Below are positions 6,149 through 26,454 of a stretch of DNA of 26,454 bases, in pieces (the stretch's first letter is position 1; every line of letters starts with the position of its first letter). The notes beneath the pieces were generated by a model. It was given only the letters and a program-made list of their open reading frames with translations. It searched no databases and had not been told where the DNA came from. Source of the stretch: a virus. The position numbers and the translations under genes were made by a program. Location: positions 1 through 26,454 of the IMG/VR virus record IMGVR_UViG_3300044846_005046. One strand, written 5' to 3'.

Positions 6149-6558
6149 TGATTTTTAACAAAGAAGAAACAAAGAACTTATTAAATATGTTAAGGTCATC
6201 TGATAAAGAAAATGCTATTATTGCATTTGAATCTTTAAAAAAAGTTGACACAAAAAAGTATATAGGAGAACTAATTGTACTCTATAAGTTTGGAAATGTT
6301 ACTCCTGAAGACTGGAAAACTAATTGTCCTAAAGTTGCAAAACTATTAGTAAAAACAAAAATTCTTTCGGGTTCTTATACAGCACTATCTAGTGGAGTTT
6401 GTTTATCACACATGACAAATAATAATGCTAGTATACAATCTATAGAACTTTTTATGGAATTCTTTACTAAAAGTATGATTGAATTTTTAGGTCAGATGGG
6501 ATATCCTGCTGATAAATTTGAAATTAATATAAACTTAAAAGATGGACAAAGCACTTAG
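6148..6558 (+). CDS. Small helical hypothetical protein
   Basis: A 136-residue protein that looks mostly alpha-helical (KEETKNLLNMLRSSDKEN, ALLs and FMEFFTKSMIEFLGQ), with one Cys pair-like segment (TNCPK, GVCLSH). No motif or family is recognised. It starts at a TAATG overlap and ends with TAG, 17 bases inside the following VWA-domain gene. Its fixed position before the VWA/MoxR pair might indicate a shared function, for example as an adaptor, but nothing else supports that. Confidence 0.62.
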   Translation: MIFNKEETKNLLNMLRSSDKENAIIAFESLKKVDTKKYIGELIVLYKFGNVTPEDWKTNCPKVAKLLVKTKILSGSYTALSSGVCLSHMTNNNASIQSIELFMEFFTKSMIEFLGQMGYPADKFEININLKDGQST

Positions 6559-7720
6559 TCTTAGCAAGATAGCAAAAGAATTAATGTTAATAGAGCCCTA
6601 TTATGGGTTCTTTCTAATTATGTTAAATAAAACATGGAGACAAGATTTACCTACAGCGGGAGTAAGTAAGAATGGTATTAATTACCAGTTAGCAATAAAT
6701 GAAGAGTTTTGGACAAGTCTTAGTGAAGAACATCAACTTGGATTGTTAAAACATGAACTCTTACATATAGCTTTTGGTCACTTAACAAGTTTTGGTTCAT
6801 TTAGTGATAAAAAACTAGCTAATGTGGCTATGGATATGGAAATCAATCAATATATTGATACTGATTGGTTACCTAAAGGTGGTATCATGATAGAAGACTA
6901 TGAAGATCTTAATCTTGATGAAAGAGCAGGTTGTAGATACTATTATAAGAAACTACAAGAGCTTAAACAAGAAAAGGATAAGAATGGTACTTGTGGTAAT
7001 GAACCTATGGATAAGTTACTAGATGATATAGAAAATGGGAATGTTCCTGATCATGGTACCTGGGAAGAGTTTGATGATCTTAGTGAAGCTGAGAAAAAGC
7101 TAATTGATAAGCAATTACAAAAAGTTCTATCAGATGCTAAAGAACAAACAGTAAAAAAGAGAGGACGTATCCCTGGAGAAATAGAAGGAGTAATTACTAT
7201 TGAAGAAATAGTTACACCTAAGTTTGATTGGAGAGGATATATGAGAAGGTTTACTGGAATTAGTACAAAGGTATTTACTAAGAAGATAAGGAGAAAAGAG
7301 AATAGAAAATTTCCTGAGAGTCCTGGTCTTAAACTTAAGATGAAACAACATATGTTGTTAGGTATAGATACTTCAGGTTCTGTAAGTGATTCTGAATTAC
7401 AAGAGTTTATGAGTGAAATAAATCATATTTATAAAGCAGGAGTAGATGTTACTATAGTTCAATGTGATACTGATATCAGATCTATTGAATCTTATAAAGG
7501 TAAATTTGAATTAAATGTAATAGGGAGAGGGGGAACAGAGTTTGATCCTGTTTTAGAATATTATAATGGAAATCAAAAGAGATATACTAGTTTAGTATAT
7601 TTTACTGATGGAGAATGTAATACACGTGTAAAACCAAAGGGACATGTTCTTTGGGTTTTGTCAGAAAGATCAAATATGAATGAAAGTTTACCAGGAAAAG
7701 TAATTAAATTAGAACTATAA
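6542..7720 (+). CDS. VWA-domain metallopeptidase-like protein (DUF2201 type)
   Basis: A 392-residue two-part protein. The N-terminal part resembles the putative metallopeptidase domain of the DUF2201 family: PTAGVSKNG, then a zincin motif HELLHIAFGHL with His71, Glu72 and His75 plus a following His80. The C-terminal part is a VWA-like domain with an intact metal-ion-dependent adhesion site: DTSGS at 276-280, Thr332 in RGGTEFDP, and Asp356 in YFTDGEC. Between them lies a charged linker (about 120-225). Such proteins usually pair with MoxR-like AAA+ ATPases, which follows here 11 bases downstream. Known MoxR-VWA pairs act as chaperone-like machines inserting cofactors or remodelling complexes. 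In a phage, the substrate is unknown. The start overlaps the previous gene by 17 bases. Confidence 0.82.
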   Translation: MDKALSLSKIAKELMLIEPYYGFFLIMLNKTWRQDLPTAGVSKNGINYQLAINEEFWTSLSEEHQLGLLKHELLHIAFGHLTSFGSFSDKKLANVAMDMEINQYIDTDWLPKGGIMIEDYEDLNLDERAGCRYYYKKLQELKQEKDKNGTCGNEPMDKLLDDIENGNVPDHGTWEEFDDLSEAEKKLIDKQLQKVLSDAKEQTVKKRGRIPGEIEGVITIEEIVTPKFDWRGYMRRFTGISTKVFTKKIRRKENRKFPESPGLKLKMKQHMLLGIDTSGSVSDSELQEFMSEINHIYKAGVDVTIVQCDTDIRSIESYKGKFELNVIGRGGTEFDPVLEYYNGNQKRYTSLVYFTDGECNTRVKPKGHVLWVLSERSNMNESLPGKVIKLEL

Positions 7721-15472: not shown

Positions 15473-18400
15473 TTAATCTAAATTTTCAAAAGTTTCATAC
15501 TTTTTAATGGCCCAATAAGCATCTCTATTTTTACCTTTAACACCATACATAGTTCCAATATTATTCCAAATTTTATATTTACCTTTCTTTTGCCAAGAAT
15601 AAGGTCCAACATCTTGTGAATATACAGCATCAGGATTATCAAAAGCCATATCTTTTAAATTACCCATAATTTTTATATAAACCTTTAAAGTATTTTGTGT
15701 TGCAATAGTTGTTGATCCAAAATAATTAAACATTGCTTTGGTACCAAATCCAGGAACAAAAGCTTGATTTTCTACCTGAGTCATCATTAATAAATATAAT
15801 AAATGATTTTCATAGTGTCCAATATTAGTTTCACCTCTTGCTTTAATTTTAGCCCATCTTTCTGGATCTTCTGGATCATAACCAAACATCCAACTTCCTA
15901 CTATACTTGCAAGTATAAATAATAATAATCCTTCAGCTACAACTTTTTTCATTGCAGCTTTTTCTTCTCTTGTTAATAAAGGCCAATCTTTACCAATACT
16001 TCTGGCAAGATTATATATATTTATCATAGCAGTTGGATAGTAACCTCTTTCTAAAGTATTTGTATCCCAATTATAAACATGTCCTCCACGGTTACCTTTT
16101 GTAGTATCCATTTGATACTTATCCATAAACATACCTGTAGCAAATCTTTTGTAGAATGTAAATGCTCTATACCAAAGATATTTTTCAGCATGCGGAGTAT
16201 CAAACTTATCCATAGATCCAGTAGCTTTTTTATTAACACCTTGAACTAATAGTTTCATCCTATTAAATTCTTTAGCATTACCTACTTCAATTTCTTGACC
16301 AATTTGTAAATCTGATATAGAAGTAATATCTGCACGTTTTTTTAATTCCTCTACAGAAATATTATATTTCTTAGCAATACTATCAAGAGTTTCACCTCCA
16401 GTATATACATGATTTACTTCTCTAAATCCATAATTAGGATCAATACCATCTTTTAATTGTAATATACCTTGAGCATCTGTTGTCCAAGCTTCTGCATATG
16501 GAATTGATACACCATTTTGATCAACATATTTATTATACATTACTCCCCAGAATAATTCCATAGAAGCTTCATATTCCATAGTTCTTCTAAAATCAAAAGC
16601 ATAAGTCATATCAGAAATATCCTTAGCTATTGATCTAGATGAAGATCTACCAAATTCTGATCTAGTTCTAAGAGCTGGGTCAAATCTTTCAATTAATTGT
16701 ATATCTTGAGTTTTCATACCTTTTGCATATACATCTTTAAATATCCAATATGCAGCAGACTCTTTAGCTTTAAGTTTACCTTTTGCTAAAGAAGCTAAAG
16801 TGAGGTGTTTTCCTCCAGAAGCTAAAATAACATTTTGATATAGCATTCCCCAACGGTTTTTAATTGCAGATTGTGGATCAAAAGCAATAAAAGCTCTAGA
16901 AGATCTTCTAAATAAACCTTGAAATATTTTAGTTATACCAGGATTCTTTTTTTCAAAATCACTATTTGGTTTACCATAAAAAGTTTTATTAATTAAATAA
17001 TCAATAGCATCCTTTCTATTATTATATTCATCTTTTAAATATTCTTTTTTACCTGTAAGTACAAATTTATCTTTATCAACTTTACCTAATTCTTTAATAG
17101 GATTTTCTTCCAATACACTGCTTAAAGCTTGTGCTATTGGTTCATTTTCTCTTAAAGTTTCTTGTTCATTTAATGATAAAAGATATTCATACATACCTCT
17201 CATAACATCTTTAGATACAAGATCAGCATCTAAATTATATGTACCCCTTACAGGTATTTTACTTTTAGCATTCCCTTCTAAATCTGTAGATACTAAAACA
17301 TCTCCTTCATCAAAGTTATAGCCGTATTCTACATCATCTGCAGATTTACCAAACATTGTTGCCCAAATGTCTTTAAAACTATTTACTTTTTTAGTTACAC
17401 CATCTTTAACTTGTCCAGACTCAAGATATTCTAAGTTACTTCTTCTACGGAATCTTGGCATATCTAAATAGAGTCTACTATTAGTAGCTTTATTTTCTTG
17501 AATCTTTAACATAGATTCTGTAACTGCCTTGAGTAATTTAAATTCAGCAGAATTTTTATCTAATGCTTCATATTTTTCATTCATGTATTTATTATCAAAT
17601 GCTGAATTTAAATCTCCTGGTGTATAAGCTCTAGGTAAAAAGTTTCCACGGTTATCTATTATAGTACCTACATAATTATCCCAACTTTCTCCTCTTGGAA
17701 TAGTAAGTAAACTATTTTTAAGTACACTCTTAGTATATTTTCCAGATGGTACTCCTTCTTTAATAATTTCTTCTTTAGTATAAGGATCAATAAGAGTAGT
17801 TTTTTGATAAGCTGATTCATAAGAAGGTTTAGTTACTGTCCAAACATTAAGTCTTAGATTACTATTAATAGTTTCTCCAGAAGCAAAATCAAATCTTTGT
17901 TTAGTATAGTGATTTCTTGTAAACCATTGTGTAAAATCTTTACTTGCAGCCATAGCTTGTTCTAGATTAGTAGAATTAATCCATGAATCTGCATTATCTA
18001 TAGTAATTTCAGGAAGACCTAAATCTCTTATAGCATAATTAAAAGCTTCTATATAATAATCAGTAGCTTCCTTTGTACTTATATCTGATAGTTCACTAAA
18101 TTTAGTACGTAAAATTTGTTGCTCAAGAGGACTTAAGGCCATTTCATTTTTAACTGCATAAAGTTTTGCATAGTCTTCTCTTTCTTCAGCAGTTAATTCT
18201 TGGTTAAGAGATGACTTTTTAACATAACCTTTAAGTCTTGCAAGTTCTTCTTTAAGTAAACCACTTTTCTTATCAAAACTTGCTTCTAATGCAACAATTT
18301 TTTCTTCTATAGTTCTTAATAAATCTATTTGCTCAGGAGTAAAATTAACACCATTAGGTTGTCCATTATTATCAGCAGTTGAATTTGCTAATCTATATCT

Positions 18401-21400
18401 TTCTTTATATAACTCAGCAAGATCCATTACAACTTGAGATTTAATTCCTGCTTTTTCAGAAATTTTTCTTATATCTTCAAAAATTTGTTGTCTTGATTTA
18501 TAATATTCAGATGTATATGCTGTCTTTAAATTCTTTTTAAAGAATCTATCCATTTCTTTTTGATATAGATTTTTATCATCTCCTTCTGCAGGTCTTTGTT
18601 CTGGATCTATGCCCCTAGCAAGTAATTGATTAGAAAAGTTATCTAAATCTTTTTGGATACGGTCTGTATCTGAACTATAGTCATACATACCTCTACTTAA
18701 CTCACGGTGTTTTTGTCTAAGCAAAACTCTTTCAAGTTCTTCACCAGTCTTAGGCTTACCATCAAGACCATAAGTATCAAACAATCTATTGTATTCTAAT
18801 CTAGCTTGCTCTTCTGAGTCACCTAGTTCATACATATCTTCAAGTTCTAGAAAATGTACATTCTTTAAAGTGTTCATCTTATCTAGATCTTGTTGTCTTT
18901 CTAAAAATGAGTCAAAAGCAACCTTTGGTCCTACAGTTATTTCTTCTTTAGTAAATGGATTTATAACTTTAGCTCCTGTTTTCCATATTTTTTGAATATC
19001 ATAGAATTCTTTTTTAAATTTCCTATGCATATATTTTTCATCAAAATCTTGGATAGCTTCATATGCTTCCTTCATTTTAATTTTATCCTTAGTAGCTTTA
19101 GCTTGATCAAAATTATTTTGCAAGCGGGCTCTATCAGCACGGTAGTTTTTAAATTTATTAAGGAAAGTTAATACATCCTTTTCTTCAAAGACACCATCAT
19201 TAGTAGTGTAACCAATCTTATCAGTAAAGAGAAGCATGTCTCCTAATTGATTTGTTCTTGCAGGATTATAACCTACAGCATTAAGAAGAGGTAATAATTT
19301 TACAGTAATATCATCTGCTTGATTTTGACTTGCTGTTAATGCATCAGACATTTTAGTTTTAATAAAGTTTACAAAACCCCCAGCAATAGGATCATCCATA
19401 TTAGAATAAGGAGTAATCCAGTTAGTAAAGTAACCAAGATCACCTCTTTCCCCACGTAAATATTCTTGAATTTGGTCACGGCCAAGTCTTTTATGATAAT
19501 ATTCTTGAGCTGCATCAACAATTTTTTTAGCTCTTCTATTATCAATATTTAAACCTAAATCTTTAACTTGTAATGTTTTACCATCAGTATTATTAATTAT
19601 TTTATTAATAAATGTTTCAATATCTGCTTCAGAAACACCTTCTGCTTTTAAAATAAGAGTAGCTCTGTCACGGAAGTTATTTTCTACAGCATCTCCCATT
19701 AATTCTGTTTCATTACTAAAGAACTCACTAATGAAATTAAATTCAATTTCTTTTATTTTAGAATTAGCTGTTATAATTGAATCACCAATTGAGTTTAAGG
19801 TCTTATAAAATAAACTGTCTTTACTTAAACCAGGAATTGTTTTTAAATTAGAAATTAATTCTTCTTGTGTTTTTAGGAATCCTTTATAATAAACAACCTT
19901 AGATATATTTTCATTAGTTTGTTTTGCACTACCTTTAATATCTTTTAAAATAACATCAATACCTTCTGTAAAAACTTTAATTTCATTTAATGAATTAATT
20001 AAGGCAAGTGATCTTAATTTAGTTTCTTGTTCAATATCAGCAATGGCATTAATAATATTATCAGGGTTTACATCTTTAGCACTAATGTTTATAGTTTGAT
20101 ATTTTTCTAATTCTTCTTTTACATAATTAAGAATCTTAGTACTTTGTGATTTAAGAAGGTCTTCTTTAACTTTAAATGGAGCTTGTTTAAGTGCATCTAA
20201 CTGTCTTATTACATCATTATAAATCTTATCTATTTGTTGTTGTAATTCTACAACAGGGACAGCTTTTAATTCTGCTATTCTTTCTGCAATTTCATTACTT
20301 CTAAATTCTGCCATTATAGAAGGCTCAATTTGTAAATCTTCAATAACAAATTCTTTATTGGCCAACATATCTGCTAATTGTCCTAATGTAGTTTTTGCAC
20401 TAAGTTTATTTAAATTAACTTTAGTTGCTGTCTTACCAGTAAATAAAGATCTTAAAACTTTTTTAAGAGCAAACATTAGTTTCTCTATAAATTTCCCAAA
20501 AGCTGTTTGGTTATTTGCTTTTTGGGAAGCCATTCTTTCTATAGAAGTAACCATAGCTTCTTCCATAAATCTATCTGACCCTTCTTCTAAATTAGGATAC
20601 TCTGCTTTTATAGCAGCAATAATTTCTTGTCCTTCTATAGTTGATTGAAGCTGAGAGTAAAGACTTTTAAATAATTCTGGATTTTGTTTTAATATACCTT
20701 TTATTAATGGATGAGCAAATTCATGCAATACATTATCTGCAGTTACATTACCTTCAATAATATATATTTTATTGGCATGAAAAAATGCAGGTTGATTCCC
20801 GTAAGGAGTTGGAGTTCTTTCTAAAATTAATGTAGCCATTTCTGGTGTAATAACTTCATACTCCATTCCAAAAGCTGCTTTTAATTTTTCAGCTAAAGCA
20901 ATAGCAATTGCTTTTCCTTTAATAGTATCTGGTTCTTCTAAGCTATCTTCAGGCTCTTCAACTTCTAATTCATCTAGTCTTCTTACTTCCTCAAACTGTT
21001 GATTAAGTTGTTCATCAGTTATCATTGGATTAACTTCAAGAGGAATCTTTTGAAATGGTAAATCAAAATCATCAAGATTTTCAGATGATAAACTAAAACC
21101 TTTATCTTGAACAACTTCACTTCTAATTAAGATTCTTGGGTAAATTCTTGCAGCTGATTTTAATGCTGTAATTTTTGCATTAATAAGAGCTTGTTGATCA
21201 AGTTTAGATTCTTCTTTTTTATTCTTATCTAATACATCTGCTTTTACATATTCAATAGGTACTTTAATATTTTCATTAGTAATTGTAGGTTGAATTGCAG
21301 AATTAAAACTTTCAGTAGTATTTATTCTATAATTCTTGGAATCATATTTTCTATCTTCTATAAAATTTTCTGCATCTTCTTTATTACCAAATTCTTTAAT

Positions 21401-23842
21401 AAGATCTAACTTCATAGTATCTTCATTGTAGGCTACTACATTATATTTATTATTATTTAATGAAATACTAGGCTTAGTAATTTTACCATATTTTTGATCT
21501 AGTATATTATTAATACTAGTTATTAATTTTCTAGTAGATACTGGAGTATCTCCACCAGCTTCTAATCTAAAATTATTTTTTGTTAACCTTATACCAAGTT
21601 CATTATGAACATGTGCTAACTTATCAATTGTATCAGCTAAGTTTGGTAATATAGTAGATATATTACTTAATTGAGGAGCTTTTGTATATGATACTCCAAT
21701 TACTTCAGATTTTTTATTACTAAATTTTTCTGAAGCATCCCATACAGATCCAGAATAAACATCTCCATTAGATGCCCATTTAATATCTTCAGACTTTGGA
21801 TATATAACAAAATTAACACCAGACTCACGCTCTAGATGTCCAAGTTTTACTGATACAGGTTTTGTAAATGCAGATATAACAAATTCACCACCTACTTTTT
21901 CATTAACATCAATATTATCTAATAGATTTTGAAATAAAAGATCAATATCTAATTCAGAATAAGCACCAACAGCTGAATAAAAACCTTGACCTCTTGAATA
22001 AACTTCTTCTGGATTATACTTAATATTATTTTTTTCTTTCCACTCTTCTATAATTTCTTTAGATTGTTCAAATTGTTTGTTTTTTTCTATAAAAGTATTT
22101 ATGGTATTATCTGATAATATCCCACTTTCAATTTTTACTATATTTGTCTGATACTCATAAGATTCTTTATATAACTCTTTAGCTGTATTACTATCAATAG
22201 TATCTATAATAGTTTGTTCTTCATCTTGTATTATGTAATTATTTCCTTGTTTAGAAACATAATAATCACCAATAGTAAAAGAATTTGGAAGTATATTTCC
22301 TATATTAGTATTACTTATATCAACATCTTCAAAACTTTTAGTTAACTCACTTATATGTTGTGAAGCCTCTCCATAAGTTGGAAACTCTACATTATCAGGA
22401 GTAGTGTATTTTACTTTATAACCTGGTAAAATAAGTTTATTATTACTGTATGCAATAATATCTGAGATATCTCCAAGAGTAGCATTTTCAGGTAAGTTTT
22501 GTAAATCAACATTTCTAGAAGTAATTAACTTTCTGATAACTTCATTTAACCTTTTAAGTAACTCTTTTAATAAACTAACTAAATTCTTATTTTGTTTTTT
22601 ATCAATTTTATCAGCAGTCATTAACCCAAGTAATTCAACAAGAGCCTCTTTCTCAATATTTTCTTTTGACTCTGCCTCATATTGAAAAACACTAACATCA
22701 TCTCCCTTTATTTTTAACATGTACTGATTTGCATCATTAGGAAGAGAAAACTTTTTATTAGCAACAAGATTAATTATATCTTCATTAAATTCTCCTTTGT
22801 ATTCTTTATATTGTTCAGTAAGATATTTTTGAACTTTGCTTAAAATTTCATTATTATTTTTTTGTCTTTGAGTTAAAATATCTCCTTCACTAAAACCTAT
22901 TTCTTTTTCTTTAAAGTTATAGGTTCTCTCAACACGGTCATATACTTCTTTTCCTACACCAGCATTTAACTCTTTAATAAGATTATTATAAAGTGTATTA
23001 TTATATGTTTGAATAGTATCCATTAAAGGATGTCCTATAATCTCATGTATGGGAGTATCTAAAGTAGCATAAGCAAGATTAATAATAGCAAGTTTTCTAT
23101 TATCATTTGTTTCTAGTCTTCCTTTAAATTTTTGATTTACATCATTAATAAATTTTGCTGGGATACCTATTCTCTCTGTAAGTCTAACTGCTACATCTTT
23201 CATTACAGACTCAGCAGTTTTAATTCCTTGATCACTAGTTAATTGAAAAAGATAATCATCATTATAGCTTATACCTAATCTTTGAGCATCATCTCTTTGT
23301 ATTTGTCTTGCTTCTTCTGTATTATATTCTTTTTGAGGATCTAGTTCTTCTTCATAATCAAAGTACTCATCATTATTAATCATTTCTTCTAAAGCACTAA
23401 CAGAAATATTTGATTGGCCAGGATCTACTATTCTACTTTTTGCTCTTTCAAGTTTAGCTCCTATATCTAGTGTACCCTTTAATTTTTTAAGACCCCAAGT
23501 GCTTAAATCAGATTCTCCTACTTGTTCAATATTATAAAGACCATATACAGTAGGTACATTATTTTTAAAATTTCTATTATTAATTGCAGATATAGTAGCT
23601 TTTAAACTAATAAGTTGATTACTATTAATTTGTTTGGACATACTTCTTCCAATCTCTTGCTTAACTTTTGAAATAGGAATAAGTCCCAACTCTTGTTTTA
23701 TATTTTTATTAGATATAAAATCTTGATATGTAGGCATTGTATTTGGAAAATATGTATCTAATAATTTAGACACTGTAACTTCTCCAAAGTCATTTACCAT
23801 CTTTGAAATATTCTTATCTCCTAAGTTTAAACACTTACTCAT
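15473..23842 (-). CDS. Giant polyvalent virion-type protein with two zincin-like modules
   Basis: A 2789-residue protein, likely packaged in the virion and injected, as giant proteins of crAss-like phages are. About residues 214-472 form a zincin-like module with HEIIGHPL (His266, Glu267, His271; three residues separate Glu and the second His instead of two) and Glu399. About 580-780 carry segments typical of crAss-like giant proteins (ISAFTKP, YSGSVWDASEK). About 975-1167 form a second, related module with canonical HEFAHPL (His1040, Glu1041, His1044) and Glu1094/1095. Residues about 1170-2300 are long helical regions. A LysM-like domain lies at about 2478-2520 (GETLDSIAKKYNISVEELK) and one hydrophobic segment at about 2630-2652. 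I saw no RNA polymerase DFDGD motif. The start overlaps the upstream stop (ATGA). Enzymatic activity is inferred. Confidence 0.82.
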   Translation of the reverse strand: MSKCLNLGDKNISKMVNDFGEVTVSKLLDTYFPNTMPTYQDFISNKNIKQELGLIPISKVKQEIGRSMSKQINSNQLISLKATISAINNRNFKNNVPTVYGLYNIEQVGESDLSTWGLKKLKGTLDIGAKLERAKSRIVDPGQSNISVSALEEMINNDEYFDYEEELDPQKEYNTEEARQIQRDDAQRLGISYNDDYLFQLTSDQGIKTAESVMKDVAVRLTERIGIPAKFINDVNQKFKGRLETNDNRKLAIINLAYATLDTPIHEIIGHPLMDTIQTYNNTLYNNLIKELNAGVGKEVYDRVERTYNFKEKEIGFSEGDILTQRQKNNNEILSKVQKYLTEQYKEYKGEFNEDIINLVANKKFSLPNDANQYMLKIKGDDVSVFQYEAESKENIEKEALVELLGLMTADKIDKKQNKNLVSLLKELLKRLNEVIRKLITSRNVDLQNLPENATLGDISDIIAYSNNKLILPGYKVKYTTPDNVEFPTYGEASQHISELTKSFEDVDISNTNIGNILPNSFTIGDYYVSKQGNNYIIQDEEQTIIDTIDSNTAKELYKESYEYQTNIVKIESGILSDNTINTFIEKNKQFEQSKEIIEEWKEKNNIKYNPEEVYSRGQGFYSAVGAYSELDIDLLFQNLLDNIDVNEKVGGEFVISAFTKPVSVKLGHLERESGVNFVIYPKSEDIKWASNGDVYSGSVWDASEKFSNKKSEVIGVSYTKAPQLSNISTILPNLADTIDKLAHVHNELGIRLTKNNFRLEAGGDTPVSTRKLITSINNILDQKYGKITKPSISLNNNKYNVVAYNEDTMKLDLIKEFGNKEDAENFIEDRKYDSKNYRINTTESFNSAIQPTITNENIKVPIEYVKADVLDKNKKEESKLDQQALINAKITALKSAARIYPRILIRSEVVQDKGFSLSSENLDDFDLPFQKIPLEVNPMITDEQLNQQFEEVRRLDELEVEEPEDSLEEPDTIKGKAIAIALAEKLKAAFGMEYEVITPEMATLILERTPTPYGNQPAFFHANKIYIIEGNVTADNVLHEFAHPLIKGILKQNPELFKSLYSQLQSTIEGQEIIAAIKAEYPNLEEGSDRFMEEAMVTSIERMASQKANNQTAFGKFIEKLMFALKKVLRSLFTGKTATKVNLNKLSAKTTLGQLADMLANKEFVIEDLQIEPSIMAEFRSNEIAERIAELKAVPVVELQQQIDKIYNDVIRQLDALKQAPFKVKEDLLKSQSTKILNYVKEELEKYQTINISAKDVNPDNIINAIADIEQETKLRSLALINSLNEIKVFTEGIDVILKDIKGSAKQTNENISKVVYYKGFLKTQEELISNLKTIPGLSKDSLFYKTLNSIGDSIITANSKIKEIEFNFISEFFSNETELMGDAVENNFRDRATLILKAEGVSEADIETFINKIINNTDGKTLQVKDLGLNIDNRRAKKIVDAAQEYYHKRLGRDQIQEYLRGERGDLGYFTNWITPYSNMDDPIAGGFVNFIKTKMSDALTASQNQADDITVKLLPLLNAVGYNPARTNQLGDMLLFTDKIGYTTNDGVFEEKDVLTFLNKFKNYRADRARLQNNFDQAKATKDKIKMKEAYEAIQDFDEKYMHRKFKKEFYDIQKIWKTGAKVINPFTKEEITVGPKVAFDSFLERQQDLDKMNTLKNVHFLELEDMYELGDSEEQARLEYNRLFDTYGLDGKPKTGEELERVLLRQKHRELSRGMYDYSSDTDRIQKDLDNFSNQLLARGIDPEQRPAEGDDKNLYQKEMDRFFKKNLKTAYTSEYYKSRQQIFEDIRKISEKAGIKSQVVMDLAELYKERYRLANSTADNNGQPNGVNFTPEQIDLLRTIEEKIVALEASFDKKSGLLKEELARLKGYVKKSSLNQELTAEEREDYAKLYAVKNEMALSPLEQQILRTKFSELSDISTKEATDYYIEAFNYAIRDLGLPEITIDNADSWINSTNLEQAMAASKDFTQWFTRNHYTKQRFDFASGETINSNLRLNVWTVTKPSYESAYQKTTLIDPYTKEEIIKEGVPSGKYTKSVLKNSLLTIPRGESWDNYVGTIIDNRGNFLPRAYTPGDLNSAFDNKYMNEKYEALDKNSAEFKLLKAVTESMLKIQENKATNSRLYLDMPRFRRRSNLEYLESGQVKDGVTKKVNSFKDIWATMFGKSADDVEYGYNFDEGDVLVSTDLEGNAKSKIPVRGTYNLDADLVSKDVMRGMYEYLLSLNEQETLRENEPIAQALSSVLEENPIKELGKVDKDKFVLTGKKEYLKDEYNNRKDAIDYLINKTFYGKPNSDFEKKNPGITKIFQGLFRRSSRAFIAFDPQSAIKNRWGMLYQNVILASGGKHLTLASLAKGKLKAKESAAYWIFKDVYAKGMKTQDIQLIERFDPALRTRSEFGRSSSRSIAKDISDMTYAFDFRRTMEYEASMELFWGVMYNKYVDQNGVSIPYAEAWTTDAQGILQLKDGIDPNYGFREVNHVYTGGETLDSIAKKYNISVEELKKRADITSISDLQIGQEIEVGNAKEFNRMKLLVQGVNKKATGSMDKFDTPHAEKYLWYRAFTFYKRFATGMFMDKYQMDTTKGNRGGHVYNWDTNTLERGYYPTAMINIYNLARSIGKDWPLLTREEKAAMKKVVAEGLLLFILASIVGSWMFGYDPEDPERWAKIKARGETNIGHYENHLLYLLMMTQVENQAFVPGFGTKAMFNYFGSTTIATQNTLKVYIKIMGNLKDMAFDNPDAVYSQDVGPYSWQKKGKYKIWNNIGTMYGVKGKNRDAYWAIKKYETFENLD
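20342..20920 (-). repeat. Zincin-like module, copy 2 (canonical HExxH)
   Basis: Second copy of the internal duplication in the giant protein. HEFAHPL at residues 1040-1046 is followed by EEAMV, then a basic helical stretch ending TLGQLADML. The same order occurs in copy 1 (HEIIGHPL, KEALVELLG, LLKELLKRLNEVIRK, TLGDISDII). Confidence 0.7.
22427..23203 (-). repeat. Zincin-like module, copy 1 (HExxxH variant)
   Basis: First copy of the internal duplication. HEIIGHPL at residues 266-273 has one residue more than HExxH. About 130 residues separate it from the conserved KEALVE segment (Glu399), against about 55 in copy 2. The shared TLGD element closes the module. Confidence 0.65.
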
Positions 23843-26454
23843 AATCCTTTACATTTAATATAATAATCTAATGCTTCACTAGCATCTAAGTTAGGGTTTT
23901 TTATTGTTTCTTCAGCAAAGAAGCTTTTAAATTCTGGAGTATTCATGATTTCTAATTGTTCATTAATACTTTTACCACTAAAAGTTAAAGGTGTTTGATT
24001 AAATAAATCAAGTTGAGTATCTTTAATACTATCACTTACCATATTTGATTTAACACTAGTAGATGGTTGAGTAACAAAATTTTTGAATCCTTCTATATCT
24101 TGTTTACTTCCTAATATATGTATTTGTTCTGGTTCTCTAACAATAACTTCTTCTGATGGTCTATCTGTATAATCTCCAGCTTTATTAATCATCCCATCAT
24201 AATTTTTATCAAGTGATTCTAATGCTTTATCTTTAGAATTAAAAGTTTTATCTTCAAAAATAACTGGATTTTTTAAATTTACTATAGCTCTATAAAGAAT
24301 ATCTCCTTCTCCTGTATAATATTCTTTAGCATGATCTATATTATATGCAAAATATATATAATCAGTAAAATATGCTGATTTGTTTTTGTCAAATTTTTCA
24401 CCTTCTAATTTCCCTGAAGCTTGATGATAAACAATATCTTTTACTTTACTATCAGGAAATATAGTAGATAGATACTGAGAGTATTGTTCAGGTGTTCCTA
24501 ATTTAGCTAATTCTGGATTAGATTCAAATACTTCAGATACACCTTCTTTAATACTAGTAGTAGGTTTACCTGATACAAATTCTTTAAATCCTTTTATATC
24601 TTGTTTAGAACCTAAAGCAACAAGTTGTTTATTTGAATTAACTGCAAATTGAGTCCAATAAGGTGTTGCATAAATTTCAGCTTGATAAGTTGGAAAACCA
24701 TTTACATCTACAGGTCCAATATACTTACCCGTATAATTATTAAACTTAACATAACTATCTCTATCTAAATTTTCAACATTTAATAATGTATCACTTGTAC
24801 CTTCTGTAATTTGATTAACAGTAACATTATTAGCTGAATGATAACCTCTATCCCAATTTTTTTGAAGAGCAGTTACAAAGAAATCTGGAACATCAGCAAT
24901 AAATGCAGTTGTTCTTCCCGTCTCACCTTTATATTTATCAGCAAGTGATTTTTCTTTAGCCATGTAAATTCCTTTACCTAAATTTTTTGAACCTGTTCCT
25001 TTTTCTGGATCAAGATCTGATGCTTCTAATTTAGCAGAATCTCTAGTAGCTCTATAAACAATATCTTTTATTTTACTATTAGGAAATACACTATCTAAGT
25101 ATTCTGAATATTGTTCTGGTGAACCTATTAGAGCTAACTCAGGATTATCTTCAAACACTTCTTGTACACCCTTCTTAGTTTCAATTACTTTTTGAGCAAC
25201 AACAGGTTTTGTCATTGACAAATAATTCTTAAAGTTTCTAGTAGCTGGATCTGAAATAATATCAAAAAGCTCCATCATAGTATCTGTATTCAAAGATGTC
25301 TTCATAAAGTCATTAGAAGCTTTATCCATTACAGTAACAAAATCTTCATAAGGAAGTATTTCATTAAAGCCATATTTACTATAACCTACACCATTTTGAT
25401 ATAATGATATTAAAGGTAGAACCTTAAACATATCACTAATGTATTTATTCTCAACAGGATCAGATACTTTTTTAACATTAACATCAGCTAATTGTTTAAT
25501 GTTTTCATAGTACTGTTCAGTGTAGTTTCCTTTAACTAATAATTTTTGATTATTTAAAGAAAGTACTTTTTCACCTCCTTTTAATATAGGTGAAGCTATT
25601 TGTTGTAAAACACTATACTTATCTTTTAATCCAGAATGTTTTTCTATTAAGGCCATTAGATCATCAGCATAAGAAACATCACTCTCTGTAAAGAAGACAT
25701 TATCAGTAAAGTATTTGGAAAGTAATTCTGTTGGTATATCTAAAACATCATTACCTGAATTTACATAATTTCTCATGTAATTTTGGAAAATAGAATTTAC
25801 CATTCCATTTTTAAACTGTGTCATAAATAATGATACACCATCTTCACCTTTACCAAAAGCTTTAGTTATTGCACTTTTCTTAGACTTAACTAAATCAATA
25901 ATAGACTTAGTTACAAACTTATCATTTTTTAATTTAAATAAAGGTTCTACTAAATCAGAAATAATTTTGTTATCATAGAATGTATTTAAAATAGATTCTT
26001 CTCTTAAACCTTTTACTAAAGCAGGATCAATCTTTGAATTACTAACTAAATCATCTAAAGCAATATTTCTTTTAATTACTTCTTGTATGCTTTTAGAAGT
26101 TTTAGTATCTGGATTTGCTAATCTTATTACATCTTGGAAACCAGAGAATTGATTTTCTAATTCTAAAAAGTGCATAAAAATAGCAATTGAATGATCATCA
26201 AAATCTTTATTCTCTGGTTGATCTAAAATATTATCAAGAAGTTGAATATCAAAATTTCCATCTTTATTTAGAATACCACTTTTATTTGCAAAAATTTTAG
26301 CTGTATCATATTTCTTTTTTACAAATTTCTTAGACTCTGACTCTATTACACCAAACTCAGTTAATACTTTAACTGCTGCTTTATCTTTTACATACATCTT
26401 AGAAGTATCTGCTCCTTCTACTAAATTAGCATATGAACCACCAAGTAATCTTTG
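23839..26454 (-). CDS. Giant phage protein with tandem ART-like domains, 5'-truncated
   Basis: The frame is open to the window edge. Codons upstream of the ATG at 26397 read sensibly (GGSYANLVEGADTSK), so the true start lies outside and this is the C-terminal 871 residues. The first 400 visible residues are helical and unrecognised. Then come two tandem copies of an ADP-ribosyltransferase-like domain of the type found in phage polyvalent proteins. Copy 2 has VYHQASG (His), AYFTDYIYFAYN and EEVIVREPEQIHILG, consistent with a His-Tyr-Glu triad. Copy 1 has VYRATRD and GKGIYMAKEKS. Such domains may modify host proteins after injection (inference). The stop overlaps the start of the 2789-residue gene (ATGA), so the two are coexpressed. 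Confidence 0.78.
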   Translation of the reverse strand, partial: QRLLGGSYANLVEGADTSKMYVKDKAAVKVLTEFGVIESESKKFVKKKYDTAKIFANKSGILNKDGNFDIQLLDNILDQPENKDFDDHSIAIFMHFLELENQFSGFQDVIRLANPDTKTSKSIQEVIKRNIALDDLVSNSKIDPALVKGLREESILNTFYDNKIISDLVEPLFKLKNDKFVTKSIIDLVKSKKSAITKAFGKGEDGVSLFMTQFKNGMVNSIFQNYMRNYVNSGNDVLDIPTELLSKYFTDNVFFTESDVSYADDLMALIEKHSGLKDKYSVLQQIASPILKGGEKVLSLNNQKLLVKGNYTEQYYENIKQLADVNVKKVSDPVENKYISDMFKVLPLISLYQNGVGYSKYGFNEILPYEDFVTVMDKASNDFMKTSLNTDTMMELFDIISDPATRNFKNYLSMTKPVVAQKVIETKKGVQEVFEDNPELALIGSPEQYSEYLDSVFPNSKIKDIVYRATRDSAKLEASDLDPEKGTGSKNLGKGIYMAKEKSLADKYKGETGRTTAFIADVPDFFVTALQKNWDRGYHSANNVTVNQITEGTSDTLLNVENLDRDSYVKFNNYTGKYIGPVDVNGFPTYQAEIYATPYWTQFAVNSNKQLVALGSKQDIKGFKEFVSGKPTTSIKEGVSEVFESNPELAKLGTPEQYSQYLSTIFPDSKVKDIVYHQASGKLEGEKFDKNKSAYFTDYIYFAYNIDHAKEYYTGEGDILYRAIVNLKNPVIFEDKTFNSKDKALESLDKNYDGMINKAGDYTDRPSEEVIVREPEQIHILGSKQDIEGFKNFVTQPSTSVKSNMVSDSIKDTQLDLFNQTPLTFSGKSINEQLEIMNTPEFKSFFAEETIKNPNLDASEALDYYIKCKGL
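24048..24534 (-). repeat. ART-like domain, copy 2
   Basis: Begins EVFESNPELAKLGTPEQYSQ and ends near LGSKQDIEGFKNFV. The same framing segments bound copy 1, marking an internal tandem duplication. This copy keeps a candidate His-Tyr-Glu set: His in VYHQ, Tyr in YFTDY or YIYFA, Glu in PEQIHIL or EEVIV. Confidence 0.72.
24535..25161 (-). repeat. ART-like domain, copy 1
   Basis: Begins EVFEDNPELALIGSPEQYSE, contains IKDIVYRATRD where copy 2 has VKDIVYHQASG, and ends near LGSKQDIKGFKEFV. The copies differ between the framing segments; copy 1 is longer and carries Arg in place of His. Confidence 0.7.

Follow-up and report, generated by a model that had tools for sequence, protein, structure and literature searches.

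The window analysed here is a whole stretch of viral DNA of 26,454 bases (IMG/VR record IMGVR_UViG_3300044846_005046), from a virus known solely as an assembled contig. It encodes on the minus strand a giant protein of 2789 residues (15473..23842), most likely a distant relative of gp49 of the crassvirus crAss001. The giant contains two zincin-like modules, which profile comparison firmly supports as homologous. Copy 1 (residues 206–482, 22397..23227) carries the motif HEIIGH, of the form HExxxH, and copy 2 (residues 965–1181, 20300..20950) carries HEFAH, of the form HExxH; all features of the giant lie on the minus strand. We consider it reasonably likely that this gp49-like giant holds a resident HEFAH zincin together with a cassette of about 725 residues, which bears a zincin of the HExxxH lineage and is flanked by the N-terminal part on one side and copy 2 on the other. 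One component of this explanation, that copy 1 lies in a cassette and comes from a separate HExxxH lineage of the same subfamily, is very probable.

Two homologous modules in one protein

The motifs HEIIGH (residues 266–271, 23030..23047) and HEFAH (residues 1040–1044, 20711..20725), located by motif search and conserved in their families, are the sole HExxH or HExxxH matches in the giant. Shuffled versions of the giant gave a mean of 0.023 such motifs, and two motifs were found in 0 of 2000. Using the single sequences, phmmer aligned the copies in two collinear stretches with E-values of 5.3e-4 and 5.3e-5 (search of one protein). The blastp score between the copies was 32.0 bits; the best of 1000 shuffles scored 29.3, and among 27 other segments of the giant the highest score was 30.0. 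Judged from single sequences alone, the case for homology is only fair.

Two alignments of relatives were compared. Alignment A2 contains copy 1 and 16 of the 19 loci found with the copy 1 pattern described below; L046 (incomplete), L047 (long insert) and L054 (a near-copy of L042) were omitted. Alignment A3 contains copy 2 and 15 of 17 loci, all picked by HEF[AM]HP, with L003 and L020 omitted. The copy 2 types without that pattern (L031, L034–L039, L048/L060, L061, L079 and L081) are outside A3 and were checked by hidden Markov model (HMM) and motif. The profile–profile comparison of A2 and A3 gave a probability of 99.0 and an E-value of 3.9e-18 over 170 columns. A repeat with other settings scored 126.7, whereas 60 column-shuffled controls scored at most 25.3 and 16 slices of the C-terminal part at most 23.6. 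The profile alignment pairs E399 (22646..22648) with E1095 (20558..20560), the predicted third metal ligands of copy 1 and copy 2, and places a one-residue gap within the HE motif. E399 is invariant in 17/17 rows of A2, and E1095 in 16/16 rows of A3. The HE motifs of most rows belonged to the criteria by which the rows were found; the distant Glu did not. In a search of 10 segments, the HEFMH module of Leptolyngbya phage Lbo-JY46 gave matches to copy 2 with E 1.8e-10 and to copy 1 with E 4.5e-9. According to these comparisons, we regard the two copies as firmly supported homologous modules.

The first-pass annotation, which covered residues 214–1167 of the giant, had proposed two related zincin-like modules with shared elements in the same order. 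These elements are present in both copies: HE..HPL, the Glu segment, a basic helix and TLGD/TLGQ. Its observation that the motif of copy 1 is one residue longer than that of copy 2 was confirmed, and the Glu ligands that it proposed correspond in the profile alignment.

The lineage of copy 1 and its cassette

The copy 1 family was collected with the pattern P[ILM]HEhhGHP, and later by an alignment scan in which GH was not required. Several loci represent one contig retrieved twice (for example L048 and L060), and the counts are given per contig. The pattern scan gave 19 contigs, 19/19 of one family with long common stretches beyond the motif, and the alignment scan gave five further contigs, 24 in total. 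The motif is covered in 23 of the 24 and reads HExxGH in 21 and HExxAH in two; no HExxH was found, and the distant Glu is kept in 23/23. Because 19 contigs were selected by GH, only four (two GH and two AH) are independent of that choice. Copy 1 shows 39–48% identity overall to the rows of A2. Over the core common to both copies, its identity averages 0.51 to its own family and is 0.22 to copy 2 of its own protein; the corresponding mean for copy 2 and its family is 0.40. In the tree, copy 1 is placed among the HExxxH modules, and copy 2 beside the modules of family A, the close relatives of the giant with 57–69% identity over the common C-terminal part. Conservation of the motif across the family led us to reject the reading of copy 1 as a decayed module. 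In the 17 rows of this family (L040–L058), 11 to 93 residues separate the HE motif from LYxNLLKEL, and the distance from the second His to the Glu is 83 to 181 residues. The HEILGH module of L047 and L079 is interrupted by a P-loop-like stretch (GTSRSGKST).

The relatives were recovered only via the C-terminal part of the giant, and then with alignments and the degenerate motif. Single-module scans of the viral contigs for close relatives gave no match, and a single scan of the genome contigs, with the copy 1 family as query, yielded no relative. Among the INPHARED phages no match was found for copy 1, with either the window sequence or its relative L044 as the query, nor for the whole giant or its C-terminal part; copy 2 gave one match.

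The cassette corresponds to residues about 205–930 (21053..23230), and is absent or otherwise filled in relatives. It includes copy 1 and a downstream domain detected by HMM (residues 587–867, 21242..22084), to which no function is assigned. Wherever a copy 1 contig reaches far enough, this accompanying domain follows the module; in L042/L075 the contig ends before it. Upstream of the cassette lies the N-terminal part (residues 1–205, 23228..23842), which shows 38–53% identity over the aligned stretch to the family A giants. The family A relatives match residues 1 to about 211 and about 924 to 2789, and not between, with three alignment ends reaching 308–341. Eight distinct family A contigs contain the N-terminal part, copy 2 and the C-terminal part; the site is empty in four and otherwise filled in four. 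In the empty sites (L019–L022) the flanks are joined directly: the window reads DDYLF-[QLTSD...DLPF]-QKIPLEVNPMITDEQ, and the empty relatives read, for example, DDYLFGRNSEETLGVDPNITEAE. The fillings are a stretch with HEYAH in L002, L004 and L015, and a stretch with HEPFH in L003, both called zincins by motif alone. For the HExxxH contigs, the matches fall mostly on the complementary stretch, from about 199 to about 940 (L044 runs to 1079 and L052 to 1062), and the next open reading frame (ORF) of L048 matches residues 949–1614 of the giant at 21%. In several cases the C-terminal parts of the HExxxH contigs are distantly related to those of family A. Therefore, family A and the HExxxH contigs are distant cousins with different N-terminal halves. 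The G+C content of the cassette is 0.26, compared with 0.283–0.300 in sampled windows of the same size from residues 931–2789, and 0.273 in the N-terminal part. Copy 1 most likely entered the giant through an exchange of cassettes.

Within the cassette, a block of 51 residues (residues 517–567, 22142..22294) is identical to L051 at 45/51 positions, far above the level of the surrounding modules. The block is read as a small segment that was probably shared or exchanged separately.

Copy 2 appears to be the resident module of the giant, directly before the conserved C-terminal part. Its motif is altered in some relatives. The copy 2 position of L048/L060 reads ADLAM with Lys in place of the Glu, and the adjacent HEILGH copy is intact. 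In L061 a weak copy 2-like match has the site EEAMH. The copy 2-like stretch of crAss001 gp49 (L085 23434–27483) reads EEFAH instead of HEFAH, and is probably a degenerate zincin. In the cases seen, motif loss thus hits the copy 2 type. However, L081 keeps HEFSH alongside HEIVGH, and the second module of L079 has HEIFTH. According to these cases, loss occurs without following a rule.

Metal site, processing and alternative explanations

AlphaFold2 (AF2) models were made of both copies. The mean predicted local distance difference test (pLDDT) scores are 63 for copy 1 and 71 for copy 2, and the predicted template modelling scores are 0.47 and 0.69, respectively. Both models show a helix, three strands, the HE helix, further helices and the Glu helix. 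The copy 1 model has extra strands, and the copy 2 model has a short extra helix between strands. HEIIGH and HEFAH are both predicted to be helical, and E399 and E1095 lie in predicted helices. The best VIA match of copy 1 has Z 5.6 with a root-mean-square deviation (rmsd) of 4.5 over 118 aligned residues, and that of copy 2 has Z 7.1 with an rmsd of 4.2 over 149 aligned residues. The upper VIA rows of copy 2 are zincin-bearing proteins, among them lethal factor, PPEP-3, N4 virion RNA polymerase, PprI and ArdC. A family missing among the VIA matches listed is not thereby excluded. No use was made of matches below threshold, such as DUF4932 at E 0.04 and, for one member, M64_N at E 0.12.

We consider it likely that both copies are metal-binding peptidases of the kind described as metallopeptidases (MPTases) of polyvalent proteins, and both would bind zinc through two His and one Glu. 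In copy 1 the extra motif residue would be absorbed by a bend of the helix, in the manner proposed for polyvalent MPTases with a HEXXXH motif and found in M49 peptidases. The zinc site of M49 with a five-residue motif is not significantly different from that with a six-residue motif (PMC5805324). Therefore, the shift alone is no sign of inactivity.

Both ends of the cassette lie in linkers containing FQ, at residues 199–200 before copy 1 (23243..23248) and, according to the linker scan, at residues 930–931 after the cassette (DLPFQK, 21050..21055). [FY]Q occurs within 30 residues upstream of the copy 1 module in 23/24 sequences, against 12% of random 30-residue windows; the motif was selected after inspecting the linkers, and the count is inflated by relatedness, the near-identical contigs L068 and L075 being included. 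In a later control, YQ was the commonest dipeptide in the 24 linkers (20/24), followed by QN (11/24). Downstream of the cassette, ...PFQ or a close variant was found in 14/24 sequences; no match was found in the other 10/24, in some of which the ORF or contig stops. The [FY]Q linkers may be candidate cut sites of the zincins. Across 23 giants, [FY]Q[KLN] occurs 83 times against 42.7 expected, and other tripeptide classes are equally or more enriched in family A. This global enrichment was not used as evidence, because conserved sites within domains inflate the count and other tripeptide classes match it.

A role of the zincins in maturation is plausible by analogy, in line with the published proposal for polyvalent proteins (PMC5512222), and self-cleavage of the giant is likewise plausible. 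One or both zincins would cut the giant, or neighbouring giant cargo, in the linkers. The cutting would precede packaging or follow delivery, and would free domains; cassette exchange would then alter which activities are delivered. Processing of the phage's own cargo by the zincins falls, in our judgement, a little short of an even chance. P1 DdrB carries such a domain and undergoes processing prior to packaging (PMC5512222).

Several results weigh against the explanation given above. The split between the 17 copy 1 rows and the rest has a bootstrap value of just 76%, and the Lbo-JY46 HEFMH and L079 HEIFTH modules, from the other side of the split, adjoin the copy 1 clade in the tree. The AF2 models are of moderate confidence (mean pLDDT 63 and 71), and Foldseek gave no match at E 0.001 or better with either copy. 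Both VIA Z values (5.6 and 7.1) are under the caution level of 8. The VIA rows of copy 1 are mixed, and unrelated folds (HtpG and roadblock proteins) appear at similar Z. The lethal-factor matches of copy 1 fall in the range 48–257, in the N-terminal, non-catalytic domain. No zincin family reached the cut-off among the matches listed in Pfam, PHROGs and NCBIfam. The match of the giant to gp49 is weak with high composition bias (20.7 bits, bias 27). In M49, the five-residue enzyme is less active, and Gly insertion alters zinc coordination in simulation (PMC5805324). As to processing, N4 virion RNA polymerase, which has such a domain, is packaged unprocessed (PMC5512222).

Other origins of the two copies were considered. 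The first-pass annotation had suggested a duplication within the giant followed by divergence, as two homologous modules in the same protein might imply. This origin did not hold up, and we regard it as very improbable: copy 1 groups in the tree with the HExxxH modules of other phages, its core identity is 0.51 to those modules and 0.22 to its own copy 2, and the cassette is absent or replaced by other stretches in relatives. Alternatively, a HExxxH module and then copy 2 with the C-terminal part may have been ancestral neighbouring genes, in which case the window giant arose via fusion or homologous replacement and the empty relatives are deletions. In L060 the HExxxH module gene overlaps the start of a gene that encodes the copy 2 remnant together with the C-terminal part. 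In L081 a gap of 929 bases follows the module gene, and then comes a gene with copy 2 and the C-terminal part. On account of these gene orders, fusion or homologous replacement is kept as an alternative to insertion. However, the N-terminal part is present in the eight family A contigs without a HExxxH module (four empty and four with other stretches), and we think ancestral neighbouring genes unlikely. An assembly chimera might be suspected where a virus is known solely as an assembled contig, but both junctions are in frame and within a linker where relatives hold other stretches, and a chimera is hardly credible.

Other functions were also weighed. The zincins may be delivered effectors that cut host proteins (e.g. 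defence proteins) early in infection, and not their own giant. Such a role is listed as an option for these domains, and the N4 virion RNA polymerase remains unprocessed (PMC5512222); cassette exchange and an adjoining variable stretch with an ADP-ribosyltransferase match resemble arms-race weapons. The [FY]Q linkers flanking the cassette, however, hint at processing, copy 2 is not exchanged and remains with the C-terminal part, and P1 DdrB is processed before packaging (PMC5512222). We hold the effector role to be possible but doubtful. The shifted second His of copy 1, with a motif deviating from HExxH, might instead mark a non-catalytic module with a binding or regulatory role, as the first-pass annotation had suspected for one of the copies, and inactive copy 2-type modules do exist in relatives. 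Against this, both copies of the giant keep two His and two Glu; the His, Glu, His and distant Glu are invariant in the copy 1 family; L048/L060 lost the copy 2 motif and kept HEILGH intact; and characterised HEXXGH peptidases exist (PMC5805324). We consider a non-catalytic copy 1 improbable.

A broader version of the cassette explanation is that exchangeable protease cassettes are the building blocks of crassvirus cargo giants, that they are bounded by [FY]Q[KLN] linkers, that the [FY]Q[KLN] linkers are the zincins' own cut sites, and that the HExxxH cassette and the HExxH module are interchangeable. We think this quite unlikely as a whole. If it were true, the resident site could decay where a HExxxH cassette is present (HEFAH to ADLAM in L048/L060); the resident site of crAss001 gp49 is degenerate (EEFAH), and the window giant would have acquired a second protease with both sites intact.

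The crassvirus giant and known systems

The conserved C-terminal part of the giant (residues 1206–2788, 15479..20227), detected by HMM, shows 57–69% identity in the nine closest contigs. The C-terminal HMM matches crAss001 gp49 with an E-value of 2.2e-8 in a search of seven proteins (20.7 bits, bias 27), and hhalign gave a probability of 94.7. The 77 reversed or shuffled decoys scored at most 2.1 bits, and no match was found among six other crAss001 proteins (four others with hhalign). The window giant alone matches gp49 with E 0.037. The copy 2 profile matches gp49 with E 9.2e-6 and 14.3 bits, and its decoys scored at most 4.6. G001, the contig of L002, encodes the muzzle crAss_MUZ (2.1e-28) and the tail ring protein 1 CrAss_Ring_1 (7.2e-10). 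The G001 protein neighbouring the giant matches gp50 (E 7e-16) and has the motif DFDVD. The gene upstream of the window giant (23839..26454, minus strand) is the C-terminal end of a large ORF that matches this gp50-like protein of G001; the window ORF alone gave no gp50 match, and part of the gene falls outside the window. The crassvirus identity of the window is thus supported by its relatives, through G001 and the similarity to gp49 and gp50. From these matches, the giant is most likely a crassvirus cargo-type protein distantly related to crAss001 gp49, beside a gp50-like gene. Both gp49 and gp50 of crAss001 were found in virions by mass spectrometry (PMC10172136). By analogy the window giant may also be packaged in the virion, of which we are less sure. 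The possibility that the giant is the polymerase itself was rejected, because DxDxD is absent in the giant and gp49, and present in gp50 and in the G001 neighbour. Against this rejection, PMC10172136, in its reference for the polymerase, speaks of a gp49 homologue whose crystal structure was solved.

In the left half of the window, the plus strand encodes a DnaB-like helicase, a Sak4-like protein, a primase, an exonuclease and a DNA polymerase, according to PHROGs matches. Searches for a terminase in sets of seven and eight records gave no match, and no relative was found for a 672-residue protein from the late region of G001. When the PDB was searched by sequence with the giant as query, weak matches to two LysM-type proteins and to a luciferase were obtained. 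A LysM domain (E 9.8e-7, 16283..16396) lies inside the conserved C-terminal part, as a possible peptidoglycan-binding element. The upstream gene repeats the pattern of the giant: residues 2–415 and 803–871 of the open frame match the G001 protein, and the middle differs in size. In the window, this middle contains a match to ART-PolyVal that falls slightly short of the cut-off (E 5.5e-7). A 392-residue protein (6542..7720; phrog_1314, labelled HNH endonuclease) contains HELLH and adjoins a phage ATPase, a pair that we take to resemble a metallopeptidase plus a VWA-like protein. The giant of L003 is interrupted by a single TAA near its C-terminal end (L003 12373–12377). Further zincins in cargo proteins may be marked by HEAWH in the protein encoded upstream of the G001 giant (L083 3–6236) and by HEAFH in crAss001 gp47 (L085 16120–23145).

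The window modules resemble the polyvalent MPTases, which have a HEXXH or HEXXXH helix, a Glu on a second helix and a three-stranded sheet (Iyer et al., 2017, PMC5512222). More than one copy is present in about 8% of the MPTase-bearing proteins, and variable inserts lie between the helices (PMC5512222). Like the window modules, they occur in large multidomain phage proteins, and a processing role has been proposed for them (PMC5512222). In the moderate-confidence models, both copies have the HE helix, a Glu on a later helix and an N-terminal helix with three strands. The giant is itself a large multidomain phage protein, with 2789 residues, LysM and a neighbouring gene with the sub-cut-off ART-PolyVal match. 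In contrast to the polyvalent MPTases, neither window module was matched by a library model at the cut-off. Here a single subfamily, and even a single protein, contains both forms of the motif, and relatives have an empty site or other fillings. HEXXXH motifs and multiple MPTase copies were already known; the window adds a clear case of exchange.

The M49 and N4 proteins each resemble one copy. The second motif of M49 dipeptidyl peptidase III has the consensus EExxA(E/D); it does not recur here, the window reading EKEALVELL and most relatives EEAIVEL, and the protein context also differs. A search with the window module gave two families at E up to 1, neither of them M49, and with the 17 members M49 was not among the best 25 of 31 families. 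The sequence given for M49 is EECKAD (PMC5805324). Like copy 1, M49 has HEXXGH, and six- and five-residue forms occur in one family (PMC5805324). The C-terminal MPTase of N4 virion RNA polymerase resembles copy 2 as a zincin in a giant virion protein, and the structural match is weak (VIA Z 4.9, rmsd 4.6, 146 aligned). The N4 zincin shares its protein with the polymerase, whereas in the window system DxDxD is found in the neighbouring gene of a relative and not in the giant. In a Thermus phage, RNA polymerase is fused to a tape measure protein with a metallopeptidase domain (PMC10770324). No zincin was named in crassvirus cargo proteins among the matches listed in the open-licence literature, a weak negative, and no paper combining crass-like phages with zincins was found in the same literature; PMC8525569 and PMC9853417, on crass-like phages and metallopeptidases, have no bearing on zincins of crassvirus cargo.

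The present analysis connects an unannotated family of zinc-protease-like modules with crassvirus giants that belong to the virion cargo, and provides concrete candidate cut sites. The empty and otherwise filled sites show that modules move between phages as cassettes. Among the closest known systems is crAss001 gp49, a virion cargo protein called RNA-polymerase-associated. It resembles the window giant in its related C-terminal part, its copy 2-like stretch and the neighbouring gp50-like gene. It differs in its length of 1349 residues and in EEFAH, and it has no match to the profiles of copy 1 or the accompanying domain. This comparison suggests that gp49 of crAss001, a cultured phage, retains vestiges of a former protease domain.

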